Part shown: positions 46,300 through 59,110 of the stretch, piece after piece
Numbering within the stretch: the first letter of the stretch is position 1
Layout: every line of letters starts with the position of its first letter
Assembly: GCA_014905825.1 (NCBI GenBank)
Contig: JACGCN010000002.1
Location: 558,001-622,000, forward strand
Source: Lyophyllum atratum
Lineage: Eukaryota > Basidiomycota > Agaricomycetes > Agaricales > Lyophyllaceae
Reading direction: 5' to 3'
DNA: 64,000 bases
The notes under the pieces: model-generated
What the model was told of the DNA's origin: nothing
Seen by the model: only the letters and a program-made list of their open reading frames with translations
The model's database searches: none
Made by a program: the position numbers and the translations under genes

Positions 46300-47160
46300 T
46301 CACAGCCTTCTGGAGCCCTGCTGGTGATGGCGGCCTGCAACACAAATTTCAGACATGGAAGTACCAACACTCATCTCATATGGTGTGGACCACTGAGGTT
46401 GAACAGTGAGGTAGGGCCTTGAGCGAGAGTTGGTGTCAGTCTTGGAATGAGGTCTGTCTTCAAATATTACGTGGCGATTACTATCATCATACAATGCATC
46501 ATCCTCTTGTCGCCAGGGCTTCTTCGGAGTCGGATTATCGTCGGTGCTATGATCAGTCCGCGAGTGTTTGTTCAGGCGATATGGGTGCGATGGTTCTGGC
46601 TGCCTGCGCTTTGGGATAGGTTTAATTGGGCCGGATAGACGCACAGCAGTACCAGAGTGCCCTTGCTCTGGGGGTCCACCGTGCTGGGAGAGAGTAGATG
46701 ACGAGGCTACTGGCACCGGTACACTGGATGTTGATGACATAGAAGCCAGTGCTGGGAGGGTGGAAGATGATGCAGGAGGGCCTTGACAATGTGGAAATGT
46801 TGACGGAATATCGAGGATTTGGAGCAGGACCTGGTTGTTCTTCCCCATAATGAGGGGAATTTGATACCACTCCTAACTCCCAGTTTCATGGTCTTGTTCT
46901 TGTAAATTATTTGTTATTGAGAGAACAGACATGAAAATGATCACAACATACCTTGGGACCAGCCCTCGAAGCGAGATGGATCCTTGCGGGAATACTTCGC
47001 GAGTTGCACAGCTATGTCGGAGTGAATTTTTTGAGGAAATTGTCGCAGCGTCGGGAGTGGCATACTCGGTGGCCAGTTCATGATCCTCACCTGATGGTTG
47101 ACAAGGTCGTTGCCCAATGTCGTCCATTCCATCCACTGCCTGGACGTGCCCAAGTAGGAG
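46300..47160 (-). pseudogene. 3' part of a host gene split by the hAT-like element
   Basis: Minus-strand exon 46968-47160 reads YLGTSRQWMEW, LGNDLVNHQVRIMNWPPSMP and KYSRKDPSRFEGWSQ. After an intron starting GTATGT, a Ser/Pro-rich frame (46300-46848) with PIPKRRQPEP follows. The exon is cut at 47160 by the insertion, and its first nine bases lie at 52719-52727 on the far side. The layout resembles uncharacterised agaricomycete proteins that have a short folded block followed by a charged tail. Function is unknown. The join to the Ser/Pro-rich exon is not frame-certain. Confidence 0.6.
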
Positions 47161-47345
47161 TAGTGATTCGAGGTCCGGTCGCAGCAACCGCCAAAAACCG
47201 GCAACTCAACCGGACCACGACCGATGCCAACCGGACCTGCGGTTGCGGTTGTCGAGAATTGCTGGTGGACAACCGCGGTCCGGTCACATGGTCCAGCACC
47301 TGATGAACCGGCAACAACCGGTTGTGATCAGTCGCGACCGAGGAC
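47161..47345. repeat. left sub-terminal CCGGT-repeat arm of the hAT-type element
   Basis: About 185 bp with many CCGGT/ACCGG words in both orientations, for example AACCGGCAACAACCGGTTGT and CAGTCGCGACCGAGG. Dense short repeats next to the terminus are typical binding sites for hAT transposases. No coding sequence is seen. Confidence 0.8.
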
Positions 47346-47415
47346 CGTGCACATGGCTTTGTCACCTATCAATTTTGAACCCCACCGTGTTCAACCAGCC
47401 TGCCGTCTGCGTTGA

Positions 47416-48525
47416 CGAAGCCCCCTCCACCCCTTAGTGTGGCGAACGCATCCCACGACACCAAACAGGACGGCGCACGACCCTCCCACGTGCAGGAGCA
47501 ACCTCAGCAGAGGAGAAGCGAAGGGAACGGGGCAGGGCAAAGGGCAGACCCCAGCAGGGGAGAGCCAGCAGGTGTGTCATCTGCACACCCTCTTGCGTGG
47601 CTCCTTTGCTGGCTCCGACGTTGGTTCCATTGCCGCCTTCAACGAGGCCGATGCGGAGAGCGTACGCGACTGGAGGGACAACTCCGTCAGCGGTGGGCTC
47701 GGCTCTGCCGTTGAGGCCGCCTACAAGGACTCGACCCAGGGCACATACAAGGGTACTAGCTGCAGCGGCTCCACTCGCCAGAGCTCCATCGCGCCGTCCG
47801 TCAGCAGCGCCTCCTCTGTGCGCAGCGTGTCCTCTGTGGGCACTGTGCGCCTCAGCAGCGTTAGGCGTGCTACCATGCCTCACATCCCTGAGATCATCCG
47901 CACGTCCCCTACAGCATCCTTCCATGGCTCCGTGAGGTCTGCGAGCACAGCCGCCTCCACGAGGACTGTCGCCTCCCTCAAGGGTACGCTCAGTGGGCGC
48001 TTTGGCATCAAGGAGATCGAGGGTGTTATCGCCGACATCATCGACCCGTTGGCACCCAGGAGTGTCGTCTTCAAGGGCCTCACCTTCCCCACCGTCATGC
48101 ATTCGTGTGTGTGGTCCGTCTTGGGGTACACACGTGGCCAGAACGACACCTCCATTGCCACCCTCTCCGAGAAGGAGATGCGTCGTGCCCTCAAGGAGCA
48201 CAAGGAGTCCATCGGCCCCGACTGGCACGAGTCCAAGGTGGTCTCTGCCCTCGTCGTCCTCCTCCTCACCGTATGTTCCTTGGACCCCGAGTACGAGTCG
48301 GCTCTCACGATGTCACAGGGGTGGTCCTTCCGCTACATGAGCAAGGACCTCATCATGGGCGTCGACGAGCAGGGCAATGGCGTCAATGCCTACGGACGCG
48401 CCCTCTACATCGTGAGGGATATCTGCCGTGTTTTTGGTACAAAAGGCCTCGGCGTCTCCACGCTGCTCAACGGCCTCAATGCCCTGTACGTCAGCCGTAG
48501 CCATGGTGTCGGCAGCGTCTTCTGA
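47416..48525 (+). CDS. cargo ORF A, unknown protein
   Basis: An open frame without introns runs from 47416 (after a TGA at 47413-47415) to the TGA at 48523-48525. No ATG occurs in it before 47875, so the start is unresolved. An ATG at 47353 is in the same frame but separated by the TGA, so the gene could be truncated by one nonsense change, use a non-AUG start, or be spliced. The first part is Ser/Thr-rich (SSASSVRSVSSVGTVRLSSV). The second part looks folded (EIEGVIADIIDPLAPRSVVF, then MRRALKEHKESIG and NAYGRALYIVRDICRVFG). I recognise no domain; a structural or nucleic-acid-binding role is only a guess. Confidence 0.6.
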   Translation, partial: RSPLHPLVWRTHPTTPNRTAHDPPTCRSNLSRGEAKGTGQGKGQTPAGESQQVCHLHTLLRGSFAGSDVGSIAAFNEADAESVRDWRDNSVSGGLGSAVEAAYKDSTQGTYKGTSCSGSTRQSSIAPSVSSASSVRSVSSVGTVRLSSVRRATMPHIPEIIRTSPTASFHGSVRSASTAASTRTVASLKGTLSGRFGIKEIEGVIADIIDPLAPRSVVFKGLTFPTVMHSCVWSVLGYTRGQNDTSIATLSEKEMRRALKEHKESIGPDWHESKVVSALVVLLLTVCSLDPEYESALTMSQGWSFRYMSKDLIMGVDEQGNGVNAYGRALYIVRDICRVFGTKGLGVSTLLNGLNALYVSRSHGVGSVF

Positions 48526-49331
48526 TGCCATTGAGTGAGAGCCCTCATCCCGTCCTATGTACGCATATCGCCCCATCTGCCCGAATGTACCGCACATGCC
48601 TGTCCGCCCCCGCCCACCTCGTTTTAAAAACGCGCCATGACGGAGCCCAGGCTGCGTCAGGCACAGACATGAACAGGAAGGAGGTCCTCACACTCATCAG
48701 CACGCACCTCCGTCAGGGAGTACATGTGCGCCCATCCCTGCGCATCAGCGGCTCCTCTTATGGCGGGAGCTACCAACGGGATACGCTGCCCATCGACTTC
48801 GACGTCATCGAGGAGTATTTGCAGCGCAAGACGGCTGCTGACAAGCTGATCCAGCAGCGCCTCACGCTCCCGTCTTCGAATACATCCGGCCAACGCGTCT
48901 CCTACGAGCTCTCCCTCCCCACGTCCACGATGTGCTGCATTCTCTTGGCCAGCCCTTCGTACGTGGTCTGTAACGACCTCTTCCCCACTGTGGACAACGT
49001 CATCTTCGCCCAGCTGTGGCGTGCCCTGTACTATGCCAGCCTCAACGTAGGCTCTACGGCAGACTGGGTGCGCAAATGCCTTGCTGGATGCATGCGCACC
49101 GACTTTTGCTGCGCGCACGGCATCCCCGTCTTTGGCACAGGAGAGAACGGCTCCGCACAGGAGGGCGTGCCCTCATCCATCGTCGCCTGCATGACGGGCG
49201 ACATAGAGGTTTTAACAGCGGAGACGGGGACGCACGCAGGCATATGCTTGGCACAGGGCTCGTACAACAGCTCCTACGTGGAGGTGCAGATGGCATTGGA
49301 GATGGCGGCGGCTAGCTTGTTTCGAGGCTAG
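48525..49331 (+). CDS. cargo ORF B, unknown protein
   Basis: Intronless frame of up to 268 residues. The ATG at 48525 overlaps the stop of ORF A (TGATG). A later ATG at 48669, with TTTTAAAAA about 45 bp upstream, would give 220 residues starting MNRKEVLTLISTHLRQG and may be the true start. Recognisable traits are several cysteines (STMCCILLASPSYVVCNDLF, CMRTDFCCAHG) and a Gly/Ala-rich end. I find no known domain. The frame ends 20 bp inside the tail of leftward ORF C, so the two transcription units converge here. Confidence 0.6.
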   Translation: MPLSESPHPVLCTHIAPSARMYRTCLSAPAHLVLKTRHDGAQAASGTDMNRKEVLTLISTHLRQGVHVRPSLRISGSSYGGSYQRDTLPIDFDVIEEYLQRKTAADKLIQQRLTLPSSNTSGQRVSYELSLPTSTMCCILLASPSYVVCNDLFPTVDNVIFAQLWRALYYASLNVGSTADWVRKCLAGCMRTDFCCAHGIPVFGTGENGSAQEGVPSSIVACMTGDIEVLTAETGTHAGICLAQGSYNSSYVEVQMALEMAAASLFRG

Positions 49332-50001
49332 CCACGAACATGCGATGGTACTCTCGCGACGCGAGCACCCCACGCATCTCCTCACGTATGCATCTGAGTA
49401 CGCCGACGACTGTGTTAAAATCGCCGTTAGTGTTGATGCGGCCGCAGTAGCCGAAGGAGATGCACGAGCTAGTAGGGTTCGTCTTCATGCGGTACGAGGC
49501 GAGCTTGCTTCCCGTGGTGTTGGACTCCACGCTCAGCTGGCTCTCCGCACGGGACTCAACGTACTCATTGAAGACGGCAATGGAGTTTGCGGACATGTAG
49601 TACATTCGAGCGTAGCAGGGACGACGGCGCTCTGCCACCATGTCGTGAAGGACCGCCGTGGGGTACATTGTGCGCGGATCCTCTGAAGCGACGACGCCGA
49701 ACATGAAGGAGGAGCCATGCAGCCGTATGAGGGAGATGGTGTACGCACTCCTCAGGGCAGGGCGGCCGCTCTCTTCGACGAGGGCATCAAAGAGCTCAGG
49801 GTCGTACTTGCCACGGAGCGTGTAACCACCGCGCTTTGCCACGATGGTAGCCTTCCACTCCGTCCCCTCAGACATGCGCCCAATGGAGGCAAGGGCCCTT
49901 CCCAGGACGTCGGCGGGAATGGGTGGTGTGTTGAGCTGGATGGTGACTATGAGGGGCAGAAGGATGTTGCAGGACACGAGCACATCTCCGTACCGGCACA
50001 T
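49312..50001 (-). CDS. cargo ORF C, unknown protein
   Basis: The minus-strand frame is open from about 50106, but the first ATG is at 50001, giving 229 residues. The N-terminal half has hydrophobic strands (LVSCNILLPLIVTIQL). The C-terminal half reads MYYMSANSIAVFNEY and ISFGYCGRINTNGDFNTVVG. The last block loosely resembles the strand-turn-strand of TBP-like folds (sequence-specific factors of large DNA viruses), but this is too weak to call. It is followed on the same strand by nothing; upstream, 172 bp away, is the helicase gene, so C and D could be one leftward unit. Confidence 0.55.
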   Translation of the reverse strand: MCRYGDVLVSCNILLPLIVTIQLNTPPIPADVLGRALASIGRMSEGTEWKATIVAKRGGYTLRGKYDPELFDALVEESGRPALRSAYTISLIRLHGSSFMFGVVASEDPRTMYPTAVLHDMVAERRRPCYARMYYMSANSIAVFNEYVESRAESQLSVESNTTGSKLASYRMKTNPTSSCISFGYCGRINTNGDFNTVVGVLRCIREEMRGVLASREYHRMFVASLETS

Positions 50002-50173
50002 AGTGATGCAGCACACGGGGCGGGAGTACTCAGTGAGGGCGGCCAGTGGGACCCCAAGTGCTTCGATGACGCTCCTGCTGAGTACATGGCGAAGGCAGCG
50101 GGGCACATCACGTACATGCTGCCGATGTCGTTCGTGCCTGTGCGCACGCTCTCTCTGTCTCGAGGGCCTTGCC

Positions 50174-51589
50174 TCACGTCCCTGTAGTTGGGACGCAGGA
50201 CTCCCCCTCGAGAGCGGTAGTGCACATCCGTGGTGGTACCTGTGCTGTCCATTGAGGCTTCAGGTGCCTCACGCAGCCCTTCATGACGAAGTCGAGGCGG
50301 TCCTCGTCGGCAGATGGGATGGGCTCTGTGCTGAGGATGGGCGCCACGTTCGTGTAGAAGGGGATGGCCACAGAACGGCGGGCGACAGCACTTGTCGACC
50401 ATTGCGTCGTCACCTTCGGGTCAGGGAGCGTGTTGCATCCCAAGAGCATGGATGCCGTCGTCTTCGCGTCCCCAACCTCCGTCTCAATGTAGTCGTGGCC
50501 GAGGAGCGTCTTGAAGTTCTGGACATTCATACGGTTCTGCTCGAAGTCGACGTCAGGGCTGATCATCATGCGGTGAGAGACGCATTGGGACGCCACGGAT
50601 CGGGGGAGGCCACGGTTGCCGTAGAGGATGCTCGCGTCCACGACGAAGGCGCACTTGCCAAGGCACTCGTACACGTAGTTGCAGAGGGACGACTTGCCTG
50701 TCCCACCCTCCCCTGTGAGGAACACGCAGCGGGCAGTCGAGACGGGGTCCAGGATGCTGTTGCCAACGACCCACATGATCGTGTCGATCTCCTTGCGGAC
50801 CGTGACGAAGCGACGGAAGTACTCGTACGGCGCGCACTTGAAGCCCTTCTTGACAATGGTGGGGTACAGGGGGTTGATGACGGGCATGAGGCATAGGCTA
50901 CGCAGCTTGCCGCTCAGAAGGCCGTTCGAGAGGAGCCTTGGAGGTACGGACGCGGTCTTGAACATGATGCTCTCACCATCGCTGCTCTCAAGGACGGTGA
51001 GGCGGCTGATGCCTATACATACGCTGCGAGGGATGGGAGGAGCGCGGTTCATCGTGGCAGCACTATTGATGTGGATCATGAATGCGGACGCCGACGTGGC
51101 GAAGTTGACGGGCACATTGGTGATGCCAGCAGCAGAGCACACCATCTTGAGGGCATCAGGGTGCTGGATCGGCACCCACCAGTTGCTGCCATTGAGGAAG
51201 ACGCAAGTGCGCCCAGCTACCTCCGTGACGAGGCCTATGTCGGTGAGGTTCCTGCGAAGGCACATCTCCGCCTCACTGATGGGGATGGCGCACATGTTCT
51301 CTGTCCAGTTCTCTTCGACGTGGTACTTGCGCAGCTTGTTGCGTTGGAAGTCCATGGAGACGGAGATGCTGCTCTGCTCCGAGTAGATGGCGTCAGAGCG
51401 GAAGCTCTCCATGCTCCTACGGCGCTCCAGCGCAGTGCGTCTGAGACGGCCTGTGAGGGAGGCCACGTCCAAGTCGTACTCTGCCTGGCCTTGGGCCGCG
51501 GATGCCGAGGATACGGGAGTAGCGTCACCACTGGTGCTGTGCATGCCGTGCGCAATGTGTAGGTGCACGTGGCAATGCAATTGCCTCAT
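50174..51589 (-). CDS. cargo ORF D, D5-like superfamily-3 helicase
   Basis: Intronless 471-residue frame from an ATG at 51589; a second ATG lies 15 codons in. Residues 293-300 are a Walker A (GEGGTGKS) preceded by TARC and VFLT, 341-348 a Walker-B-like MMISPDVD, 381-389 motif C MLLGCNTLP with its conserved Asn, and 403-411 ARRSVAIPF, an arginine-finger/post-sensor block. Order and spacing fit SF3 helicases of the D5 type used in replication by DNA viruses and virus-like elements. The region before it (about 200-290, with the block SNGLLSGKLRSLCLMPVINP) is placed like a D5-N domain. I see no HUH nuclease or primase motif in the N-terminal 200 residues. The gene is intact in a region where older genes are broken, suggesting recent arrival. 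Confidence 0.8.
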   Translation of the reverse strand: MRQLHCHVHLHIAHGMHSTSGDATPVSSASAAQGQAEYDLDVASLTGRLRRTALERRRSMESFRSDAIYSEQSSISVSMDFQRNKLRKYHVEENWTENMCAIPISEAEMCLRRNLTDIGLVTEVAGRTCVFLNGSNWWVPIQHPDALKMVCSAAGITNVPVNFATSASAFMIHINSAATMNRAPPIPRSVCIGISRLTVLESSDGESIMFKTASVPPRLLSNGLLSGKLRSLCLMPVINPLYPTIVKKGFKCAPYEYFRRFVTVRKEIDTIMWVVGNSILDPVSTARCVFLTGEGGTGKSSLCNYVYECLGKCAFVVDASILYGNRGLPRSVASQCVSHRMMISPDVDFEQNRMNVQNFKTLLGHDYIETEVGDAKTTASMLLGCNTLPDPKVTTQWSTSAVARRSVAIPFYTNVAPILSTEPIPSADEDRLDFVMKGCVRHLKPQWTAQVPPRMCTTALEGESCVPTTGT

Positions 51590-51600
51590 GCACCATCGAC

Positions 51601-51870
51601 ATGAGGTACGCTAACGACATCCTTCTGGAGGACGGCGGAGAGGACAACGCGTCTCGAGCACCTGAGGGCACAGCTGAGGAGATGCCACCCTCCGTCGACT
51701 ACGACGCTGACGAAGGCACTGTCCTCAACCGCGTGGGTGCGTACGGAGGAGGCCCCTCCATGTGGGCCGTGACGGAAGGAGGGGCATGGACAGAGGCAGT
51801 GGCACCACCTGTCCTGAGTACCCTTCTCGAGGTGCGTGCGAAGGTGAGTGCGGGTGCCAGTAGTGTTTAA
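51601..51870 (+). CDS. cargo ORF E, small acidic protein, doubtful
   Basis: An 89-residue frame from an ATG only 11 bp from the divergent start of ORF D. It is acidic at the N-terminus (DILLEDGGEDN, then PSVDYDADEGTVLNRVG). Its stop lies inside the TAGTGTTTAA terminus-like sequence at 51861. The opposite strand is also open, and no domain is visible. It may be a leader gene or a chance frame. Confidence 0.3.
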   Translation: MRYANDILLEDGGEDNASRAPEGTAEEMPPSVDYDADEGTVLNRVGAYGGGPSMWAVTEGGAWTEAVAPPVLSTLLEVRAKVSAGASSV

Positions 51871-52718
51871 AAGTCCAGTCACCGTGACTGAAAATGACTG
51901 GACTGTAACTGATCTGTGACTGGTAATGACCGGACTTCCAGTCCTGTCATCCTGGAATGACTGGTGCACCAGTCCAGTTATTTTCATAATCTGGAATTCT
52001 GCGTAACTGGAAATAACCGGTCGCGACCGGTTTGTGACCGGTCATTTCTATACATACTATATATCTGATCATAGCCCCGCTATAGGGGTTCAAGATGACC
52101 CTTGGGTCAAATAAATCGGATGAGAACTGAATGTGCTATGGCCAAAACAATTTCGGAACACCGAGTTTGAGTGCAGACTGTACTAAGCATCTTAATCAGC
52201 TCATATCTCAGTCAGATCTTATTGGATTCTCACGACCCAGGGTTCATCCGAAAGGTGGAAGCATACTCCACATTATATATGACATATACAACCGGTTATC
52301 ACCGGTTATAACCGGCTTAGAACCGGTTTTCGTAAAACCACACCCTCATGCCCTTGCAGCCCATCATGCATTCCTGCAGCCCACCACTGCCGCCACGTCG
52401 CCTGCCCACGACGCCAGCTCCTGTACACAGAGGAGCCCGCAATTGCGGGTCTTCTTCGTTGCAGGAGCTATGTCCGAGGCGGGGCGAGGCTCGGTGGGCT
52501 GTGGTCTCAGCCGGTCGCGACCGGCCTACAACTGGTTGCGACCAGGTTCGGCTGCAACCGGTTCTGACCGGGTCGAAACCGAACCACGACCAACATCAAC
52601 CGGTTGGTGAAGGTCCGGTCATTGGTCGCTCACTTCCTGATGTGCGAGCGACCGGTTTCGGTCGCAGTTGGGCCAAACGATGACCGAAAACCGGACCCGA
52701 CCGGACCTCAAAACACTA
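51861..52718. repeat. right arm of the hAT-type element, with an internal terminus-like sequence
   Basis: The arm starts TAGTGTTTAAAAGTCCAGTC, which matches the outer terminus TAGTGTTTTGAGGTCCGGTC except mainly for G-to-A type changes. It then passes from CCAGTC/GACTGG words into CCGGT/ACCGG words, including the perfect palindrome ACCGGTCGCGACCGGT at 52016-52031. Further clusters lie at about 52290-52335 and 52505-52710. The 8 bp left of 51861 do not match the outer duplication. Either an 858-bp hAT MITE forms this arm, or an old terminus is buried in it. Confidence 0.7.
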
Positions 52719-53350
52719 AGTAGGAGTCTGCAAAGATCATTTAACAGGGGAGTGATGAAGAAAGAGGCCAAACTTACTAATCATAGCCAGCATGCAAGCA
52801 AATATCACGTGGCGCGACTTGTCATGGTCACTCAGATCCACTTTTTTTGACTTGTGTTTCGGAGGCTGGAGGCATGGCCGCAAATCCACCCGCAATGACT
52901 GGGACCAAATCTGTCTTGTTCTCAGAATACTTGGCAATCCTGGATAGTTTGATCAATACATGATACACAGATTTGTTCGAGATGGACTCACTTAAGCACT
53001 GTTATGATACGATCAAGCACCTTGCTGAGCTGCCACTGGGTCAGCGCTGGTACTGACAACAGCGCCAATGATGTCGAGGTCAAAGACTCAGAAAACTTTC
53101 GCTTAAGAGAAGAACATTTCACCAACGCAGGACACTACCAGATGAGGGTCAGATCTTACCAACATGCTAAACTATGTGAGGGCCCCGGATATCGACTTGC
53201 GTGGCCCATTGGTACCCACATCGCACGTGACTTCGTTGATCTCGGCCTCTATTGTGGCAGTGAGAGCATCTCTTTTTGCTTCGTTGAGGTCGTCAAATTT
53301 TTGATGATACATCTCCGTCATGGCCTGTGTTCATTGCTCGAGAGATTTGC
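52719..53350 (-). pseudogene. 5' part of the host gene split by the hAT-like element
   Basis: Minus-strand exons 52992-53046 (LTQWQLSKVLDRIITVL), 52778-52939 (IAKYSENKTDLVPVIAGGF, then DHDKSRHVIFACMLAMI) and the first nine bases of the next exon (52719-52727) lead directly into the exon at 47160 once the element is removed. An upstream block at about 53220-53330 (MTEMYHQKFDDLNEAKRDAL) probably belongs to the same gene. Exon 52778-52939 needs one A fewer in the seven-A run (52842-52848) to stay open. The family is unknown but resembles multicopy agaricomycete proteins. The gene is inactivated here by the insertion, regardless of the indel. Confidence 0.6.
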
Positions 53351-58514: not shown

Positions 58515-58765
58515 TGTTATATGATGATGAGTCAAGTCATGTAATAGGTTAGATCCTCTGAGTGATCCAAAGATACTATCCAGTGTGCCTGCTCTCACAG
58601 TGCACCCTAGTTGATAGTTGGACACCATGATTATCCTTGGTTACAATATTGAAGTAACCAACTTCTTCTGTACTGGCTACCTAGCTCAGTGGTTAGAGCA
58701 ACCTGTCTAGTTTGCAGGAGGTCCCAGGTTCAATTCCTGGTGTAGTCACTTTTCGGTTTCTATCA
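58515..58765. repeat. TRIM LTR 1
   Basis: A 251-bp LTR, TG...CA, containing the tRNA-like gene at 58675-58748 in its last third. It is identical to LTR 2 as far as I can compare by eye. Confidence 0.92.
58675..58748 (+). tRNA. tRNA-Thr(AGT)-like gene inside LTR 1
   Basis: The sequence folds as a cloverleaf: acceptor GGCTACC with TGTAGTC (one C-T mismatch, one G-T wobble), D arm TAGCTCAGTGGTTAGAGCA, anticodon stem CCTGT/GCAGG around loop CTAGTTT (anticodon AGT at 58709-58711), and T arm CCAGG TTCAATT CCTGG. The A box TAGCTCAGTGG and B box GGTTCAATTCC are intact, so Pol III transcription is plausible. The mismatch at the base of the acceptor stem leaves doubt about aminoacylation. There is no intron. 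Confidence 0.75.
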
Positions 58766-58859: not shown

Positions 58860-59110
58860 TGTTATATGATGATGAGTCAAGTCATGTAATAGGTTAGATC
58901 CTCTGAGTGATCCAAAGATACTATCCAGTGTGCCTGCTCTCACAGTGCACCCTAGTTGATAGTTGGACACCATGATTATCCTTGGTTACAATATTGAAGT
59001 AACCAACTTCTTCTGTACTGGCTACCTAGCTCAGTGGTTAGAGCAACCTGTCTAGTTTGCAGGAGGTCCCAGGTTCAATTCCTGGTGTAGTCACTTTTCG
59101 GTTTCTATCA
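58860..59110. repeat. TRIM LTR 2
   Basis: Second 251-bp LTR in direct orientation, followed by the target duplication CCGTC at 59111-59115. Confidence 0.92.
59020..59093 (+). tRNA. tRNA-Thr(AGT)-like gene inside LTR 2
   Basis: Identical copy of the tRNA-like gene in LTR 1, offset by 345 bp, with the same anticodon AGT and the same A and B boxes. Confidence 0.75.

Follow-up and report, generated by a model that had tools for sequence, protein, structure and literature searches.

Cut-and-paste transposon ends that enclose virus-type genes are known from Teratorn of teleost fish, a fusion of a piggyBac-like transposon with an alloherpesvirus which, in the consulted part of its description, spans about 180 kb, encodes a transposase, carries a whole herpesvirus genome and exists in tens of copies (PMC10175614). 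Here, transposon ends around virus-type genes are described for the agaric Lyophyllum atratum. The locus occupies positions 47161-52718 of a 64,000-nucleotide stretch of the genome (assembly GCA_014905825.1, contig JACGCN010000002.1, forward strand; C64:558001-622000 in our numbering), which is referred to as the window; the genome searched comprised 64.8 Mb. It consists of a hAT-type miniature inverted-repeat transposable element (MITE) whose two arms enclose a set of open reading frames (ORFs), one of them encoding a superfamily 3 (SF3) helicase. While Teratorn is large and multicopy in the part of the source used, the window element measures 5.6 kb, has no transposase, is present as one copy and contains no recognized structural gene. 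A Teratorn-like element would have a transposase and several mobile fusion copies, and the window element has neither.

Other described systems share single traits with this locus. Plant Pack-TYPE transposons, including hAT elements, capture chromosomal DNA according to the consulted part of PMC8903248; the window element is likewise a non-autonomous element with terminal inverted repeats (TIRs) and captured coding DNA, but its cargo looks foreign and its host is a fungus. Viral genomes such as those of pandoraviruses have been reported to contain hAT MITEs (PMC6004678, consulted in part), and a host hAT-like MITE, termed TE2 here, adjoins the virus-like DNA of the window, where the association is known as a genomic relic only. 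DNA virus traces in a fungal genome are represented by the endogenous giant-virus region of Rhizophagus irregularis, which extends over 1.5 Mb and in which the consulted part of the report detected no D5 primase/helicase, whereas the putative counterpart in the window is 4.3 kb long, resides in an agaric and does include a D5/P4-like helicase. According to the same part of that source, fungi had no known double-stranded DNA viruses as of 2023 (PMC10640383). Among the papers listed in literature searches, none described a pairing of hAT ends with a virus or another matching case. An initial reading of the window from its letters alone, made without database searches (the sequence-only reading), had called the arrangement undescribed. 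This needs qualification, as a transposon-virus fusion (Teratorn) and DNA capture by plant hAT elements have been published.

The insert between the MITE arms likely stems from a virus-like or plasmid-like DNA element not described so far; a resident MITE would have captured this piece of it in a single event, at the site of a chromosome break. This reading starts from direct observations: the nesting of the insert, the outer 8-bp duplication, sibling copies free of cargo, the SF3 motifs of ORF D and a second helicase fragment elsewhere in the genome.

The outer element is a hAT-type MITE

TAGNG-type TIRs are a hallmark of hAT transposons. The target duplication of this group is 8 nt long according to the consulted part of PMC8903248. 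The outer element has TAGNG-type TIRs, an 8-bp duplication and multicopy ends without a transposase, and is a non-autonomous hAT-type MITE composed of the following parts.

47153-47160, no strand: left target site duplication, 8 bp, AGTAGGAG, present once only at three empty paralogous sites
47161-47592, plus strand: left arm of the outer hAT-type MITE, opening with a 20-bp TIR and homologous to sibling copies
52340-52718, plus strand: right arm of the outer MITE, closing with the TIR
52719-52726, no strand: right target site duplication, the second AGTAGGAG

The composite spans 5,558 bp (47161-52718) between inverted 20-bp ends, TAGTGATTCGAGGTCCGGTC read from 47161 and TAGTGTTTTGAGGTCCGGTC read in reverse from 52718, which are identical at 18 of 20 bases, and the 8-bp word AGTAGGAG is repeated exactly on both sides. 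Paralogous flank loci on C35, C62 and C60 are uninterrupted at the site and carry a single AGTAGGAG each, which demonstrates the outer insertion together with its 8-bp duplication. The host flanks (46560-47160 and 52719-53320) are a low-copy repeat, 85-96% identical piecewise to C35, C60 and C62. The words CCGGT/ACCGG occur 8 times in the left arm, 12 times in the right arm and 14 times in the nested TE2, but once in the 4,268-bp cargo, and 45 times in the remaining 58 kb of the window. No transposase domain was found in six ORFs scanned against Pfam families. The matching termini, the duplication, the sub-terminal CCGGT repeats and the lack of a transposase, all proposed in the sequence-only reading, were thereby confirmed.

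The insert is nested and contains a truncated second MITE

The same reading had the cargo fill the element from end to end. This view had to be abandoned, as the left arm ends at 47592, positions 51861-52339 belong to a truncated second MITE and ORF A is partly MITE. The junctions are marked by these features.

47584-47592, plus strand: left 9-bp direct repeat, CACACCCTC, the terminal bases of the left arm
51861-52339, plus strand: TE2, a second hAT-like MITE, left 479 bp only, beginning TAGTGTTTAAAAG, right part missing
52339-52347, plus strand: right 9-bp direct repeat, CACACCCTC, where TE2 breaks off

The insert amounts to 4,747 bp, of which 4,268 bp are foreign-looking coding DNA and 479 bp are TE2, and it is flanked at both junctions by the same nine bases, CACACCCTC. 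This pair may be read as the scar of a staggered break or excision that was filled with foreign DNA. TE2 is common in the genome (a query with 51850-52410 gave 40 places including its own copy), and all 11 other copies inspected extend beyond the breakpoint of the window copy. The intact left end of TE2 adjoins the cargo. Both MITEs are repeats, at which an assembly may form a chimera; this explanation is scarcely credible, given the empty sites with one target copy, the direct repeat at the inner junctions and the second helicase fragment, which lies inside another contig and has its own nested insert.

Tabulated sibling copies lack the cargo

The sequence-only reading had proposed a search for other copies with the same kind of ends, and such copies were found. 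The left end scored at 40 places among 59 candidates, its own copy counted, and the neighborhoods of 11 of the 39 other places were examined in addition to the helicase locus on C72. Nine siblings were tabulated, of which seven are long (774-1181 bp) and two are cousins of 526 bp. Every one has a perfect 8-bp duplication with a word of its own; none contains the cargo and none is long enough to contain it. An eighth long copy, L023, was left untabulated; it has the same duplication word as L022, and the two are maybe copies of one insertion for this reason. L026, a fetched place with a partial match only, was left out of the table. The left arm (47161-47592) is 73-91% identical piecewise to the eight long copies L016-L023, seven of which were aligned. 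Homology of the right arm to siblings in BLAST covers 52388-52718, and 52340-52387 is assigned by position only.

These copies bear on the question of whether hAT ends move the replication cargo as a unit, which would make the locus a small hAT counterpart of Teratorn. Intact TIRs and an exact duplication enclose all 5,558 bp, and the multicopy state of the end family indicates that such ends were mobile. Such a composite mobile element is nevertheless unlikely: a single composite copy was found in the genome, the nine tabulated siblings are without cargo, the helicase fragment on C72 is without these ends, and the cargo is truncated at its edges (the start of ORF A and TE2). The lack of cargo in the tabulated siblings and the single-copy state of the DNA of ORFs A and B led us to reject the suggestion that hAT ends serve a new class of elements here; part of the helicase gene also occurs elsewhere without the arms.

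ORF D encodes an SF3-type helicase

50174-51589, minus strand: ORF D, 471 codons, SF3 helicase of the P4/D5 type with Walker A GEGGTGKSS, motif C Asn and Arg finger

Walker A, the motif C Asn and the Arg finger are the landmarks of SF3 helicases. In ORF D they align with those of P4/D5-type SF3 primase-helicases, from which it differs by an identity of about 25%, by the lack of a recognized primase domain and by scores under the curated cut-offs (TIGR01613, 34.3 versus 108.7 bits; DUF5906, 15.7 versus 27.6). Family matches were obtained to phrog_1156 (E 1.8e-9) and TIGR01613, the phage/plasmid primase P4 family (E 1.1e-8), whereas the cellular ATPase family AAA_16 matched at E 4.1e-4 and over residues 279-311 only. 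A better score to a cellular ATPase, which would have spoken against the sequence-only reading, was thus not seen. In an alignment with five proteins (three phage, two plasmid) residues G292, G297, K298, K359, D365, N385 and R404 are invariant (numbering starts at codon 2), and the Walker B region aligns with D replacing E. From these comparisons, ORF D would be at most a distant member of the P4/D5-type SF3 group.

A tblastn search of phage records returned 310 matches at E <=10, and the best 20 of these 310 cover residues 245-456 with 25.0-26.5% identity (lowest E 8e-5). Plasmid records gave 18 matches with a best E of 0.1, ABC transporters among them. A Pfam-level scan of the amino-terminal half found no primase and no endonuclease family, including the HUH endonuclease that is a hallmark of CRESS viruses and parvoviruses. 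The Protein Data Bank (PDB) returned two chains for ORF D alone, at chance level only; a profile built from ORF D and the five phage and plasmid proteins matched D5 and African swine fever virus C962R, which is no test of ORF D by itself. When the fungal genome was searched with the TIGR01613 profile, ORF D, the C72 piece and one seemingly unrelated match on C70 (E 0.049) were recovered. The last was rejected as a third SF3 helicase since its ORF, judged by eye, resembles a PIF1-type helicase.

The other ORFs of the cargo

47593-48525, plus strand: ORF A, truncated by the junction at its amino end, with 310 codons inside the cargo and no relative found
48525-49331, plus strand: ORF B, 268 codons, coding-like composition from M49 (48669) onward only, no relative found
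49312-50106, minus strand: ORF C, 264 codons if read from the listed GTG, earliest ATG at 50001, no relative found
51590-51860, no strand: remaining cargo including ORF E (51601-51860, plus strand), which is without clear coding composition

The cargo (47593-51860) has a guanine plus cytosine (GC) content of about 60%, and ORFs A and B on the plus strand converge tail to tail with ORFs C and D on the minus strand, the tails of B and C overlapping by 20 bp. The listed start of ORF A (47437) lies inside the MITE arm, and therefore only 47593-48525 counts as cargo. The first 35 listed codons of ORF C contain no ATG. GC at codon positions 1, 2 and 3 of ORFs A-D is 0.54-0.56, 0.48-0.52 and 0.75-0.80. 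This pattern backs A-D as genes, excluding the first 48 codons of B, and does not back ORF E; together with the SF3 motifs of ORF D it agrees with the earlier claim of an SF3 helicase and three further long ORFs on two strands. Among three antisense ORFs a coding-like pattern was seen in one (50679-51383, plus strand, 0.46/0.50/0.82) and was absent in two. With both strands pooled and antisense runs included, the longest stop-free run has 478 codons and the fourth longest 310; among 300 dinucleotide-shuffled versions of the cargo, no longest run exceeded 371 codons and no fourth longest run 205 codons, and the four longest observed runs beat all 300 shuffles rank by rank.

The DNA of ORFs A and B occurs once in the genome, and the rest of the cargo with ORF E matches only itself there. 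If the genome of the captured element were circular, ORF E might supply the beginning that ORF A lacks, an idea that the missing coding composition of ORF E does not favor. A TBP-like look of ORF C is supported by no Pfam match. Mean pLDDT scores of structure predictions (36.6 for ORF C; 31.2 for ORF D, from AlphaFold2 on the single sequence) were too low for use.

ORFs B (48804-49004) and C (49396-49575) share a weakly similar stretch, SNTSG...SYEL and SNTTG...SYRM. Of 500 shuffles, 10 reached its Smith-Waterman score (six pairs were tested, this being one of them), and blastp gave E 0.49; the two ORFs might be diverged paralogues. A 28-nt inverted repeat (82%; 47626-47653 versus 49557-49584) is translated as SIAAFNE within ORF A and as SIAVFNE within ORF C, and could reflect shared ancestry or chance; over their whole length, proteins A and C are no more similar than shuffles. 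Outside the element, the window contains a pair of tRNA-Thr(AGT) genes with equal scores (58675-58749 and 59020-59094), 345 bp apart.

Searches for relatives

Searches for relatives were limited in sensitivity, and a distant relative sharing no exact words would escape them. A set of 5.8 billion proteins was searched with ORFs C and D only (2258, 7999 and 2786 candidates scored); among these candidates, ORF C had no relative at E <=10 and ORF D only the host's own C72 piece. Exact peptide patterns in IMG/VR matched 13, 1, 5 and 1 stretches for A, B, C and D, none of which was confirmed. ORFs A-C have no relative in the PDB, no NCBIfam family and chance-level matches only in Pfam (lowest E 0.078) and in PHROGs (lowest E 0.098). 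Pfam families for a capsid protein, PolB, an integrase or a packaging ATPase, by which Polintons, virophages and large DNA viruses are recognized, were not found in A-D at E <=10; orphan proteins may escape such profiles, and the cargo is only part of its source element.

These results also touch on the proposal that the cargo came from bacteria or phages by horizontal transfer and does not represent a eukaryotic virus-like element. The nearest helicase matches are indeed phage P4-type primase-helicases (25-26.5% identity in the best 20 of 310), and the 18 matching plasmid records, ABC transporters among them, have E values no better than 0.1. The proposal is quite improbable, however, as ORFs A-C have no PHROG match below E 0.09 and no NCBIfam family, the amino-terminal half of ORF D has no primase family, and C and D are without a prokaryote relative among the candidates scored.

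A second helicase copy lies outside the hAT ends

Contig C72 carries window positions 50615-51442 in two pieces, 740 bp at 97.7% and 91 bp at 96.7% identity (about 830 bp). This fragment corresponds to the database protein FPV67DRAFT_1677020 of Lyophyllum atratum, which is 96% identical to ORF D over 52%. Arms of the outer MITE are absent from its edges. The search for cargo copies outside hAT ends, proposed in the sequence-only reading, thus found part of the helicase gene. The two pieces are split by an insert of about 790 bp (L015 4349-5143) with CACAGGGT-type ends; it also shows inverted ends of the CACAGGGTGCAAAG type and perhaps a 3-bp duplication. A GC-rich stretch of about 80 bp after the fragment (L015 5883-5970) matches nothing else in the genome, nor anything in the window cargo, and may be a further piece of the same element. 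ORF C also matched C72 near position 453 kb (E 0.11), but this match is antisense to a longer ORF, was not recovered by local tblastn and was dismissed as chance.

Origin of the insert

Several observations speak against a single capture of virus-like DNA. The 9-bp direct repeat, which counts in favor of the capture, could be due to chance; for random pairs of points in the element, the rate at which an 8-mer at one recurs within 10 bases of the other is 0.0045. Between the window arms, some 200-370 bp of the interior known from siblings are absent. A clean insertion would have kept them, and two flanking MITE copies would fit this gap as well. Sibling length (774-1181 bp) varies in just that interior part, and a shorter original copy could explain it. 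The two helicase copies differ at 20 positions, 8 synonymous and 12 nonsynonymous (pN/pS 0.44, Fisher p 0.10), which is no firm sign of purifying selection. The helicase fragment of C72 has hAT-like DNA in its neighborhood, as do many other places: about 3.7 kb away there is a 117-bp stretch that resembles the outer right end at 72%. Finally, no capsid, polymerase, integrase or replication endonuclease was recognized in the cargo, and for this reason the label virus derives solely from the SF3 type.

The missing interior at the junction is also what would be left by Pack-TYPE capture, in which two adjacent MITE copies around an integrated element and TE2 acted through their outermost ends. The mechanism has been published for plant hAT elements (PMC8903248, consulted in part). 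The same 9-bp word is found where each arm meets the insert, though, and a single insertion is simpler. As a possible source locus for such a capture, the genome offers the helicase piece of about 830 bp with its 20 differences. We regard this route as rather unlikely.

A single capture, our preferred explanation, would have proceeded as follows. An episomal or integrated element with a D5/P4-type helicase would have resided in the fungus and been copied by that helicase and host enzymes. A host TE2 MITE would then have jumped into this element, a step proposed because an intact TE2 left end adjoins the cargo. A break at CACACCCTC within the outer MITE, which a previous hAT insertion or excision might have left as a staggered scar, may have been closed by end-joining with element DNA as filler, which would have truncated TE2 and ORF A. 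Host hAT transposase might still move the MITE ends, and no second composite copy shows such movement. The cargo was probably once a self-replicating DNA element with its own SF3 helicase, and in its present locus it has the look of a passenger. The headline of the sequence-only reading, which paired a hAT transposon with a virus-like cargo, is literally true of the window, but the cause is most likely a single capture; similarly, a virus-like genome captured in a MITE is right as to capture, which fits best, whereas the word genome is unproven for a block that is cut at its edges.

Implications

The cargo is the novel part and a candidate for a small agaric DNA virus or plasmid. It is tempting, if on the doubtful side, to see in it the first captured piece of a lineage of small nuclear DNA viruses or plasmids of mushrooms, with two convergent two-gene transcription units, a D5/P4-like SF3 helicase and chromosomal lodging through hAT breaks and hAT ends. 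The SF3 block and the diverged second helicase copy make ORFs A-D available as probes for such an agent in DNA from mushroom cultures. If the capture reading is true, the locus would be a readable example of a transposon trapping foreign replicating DNA.

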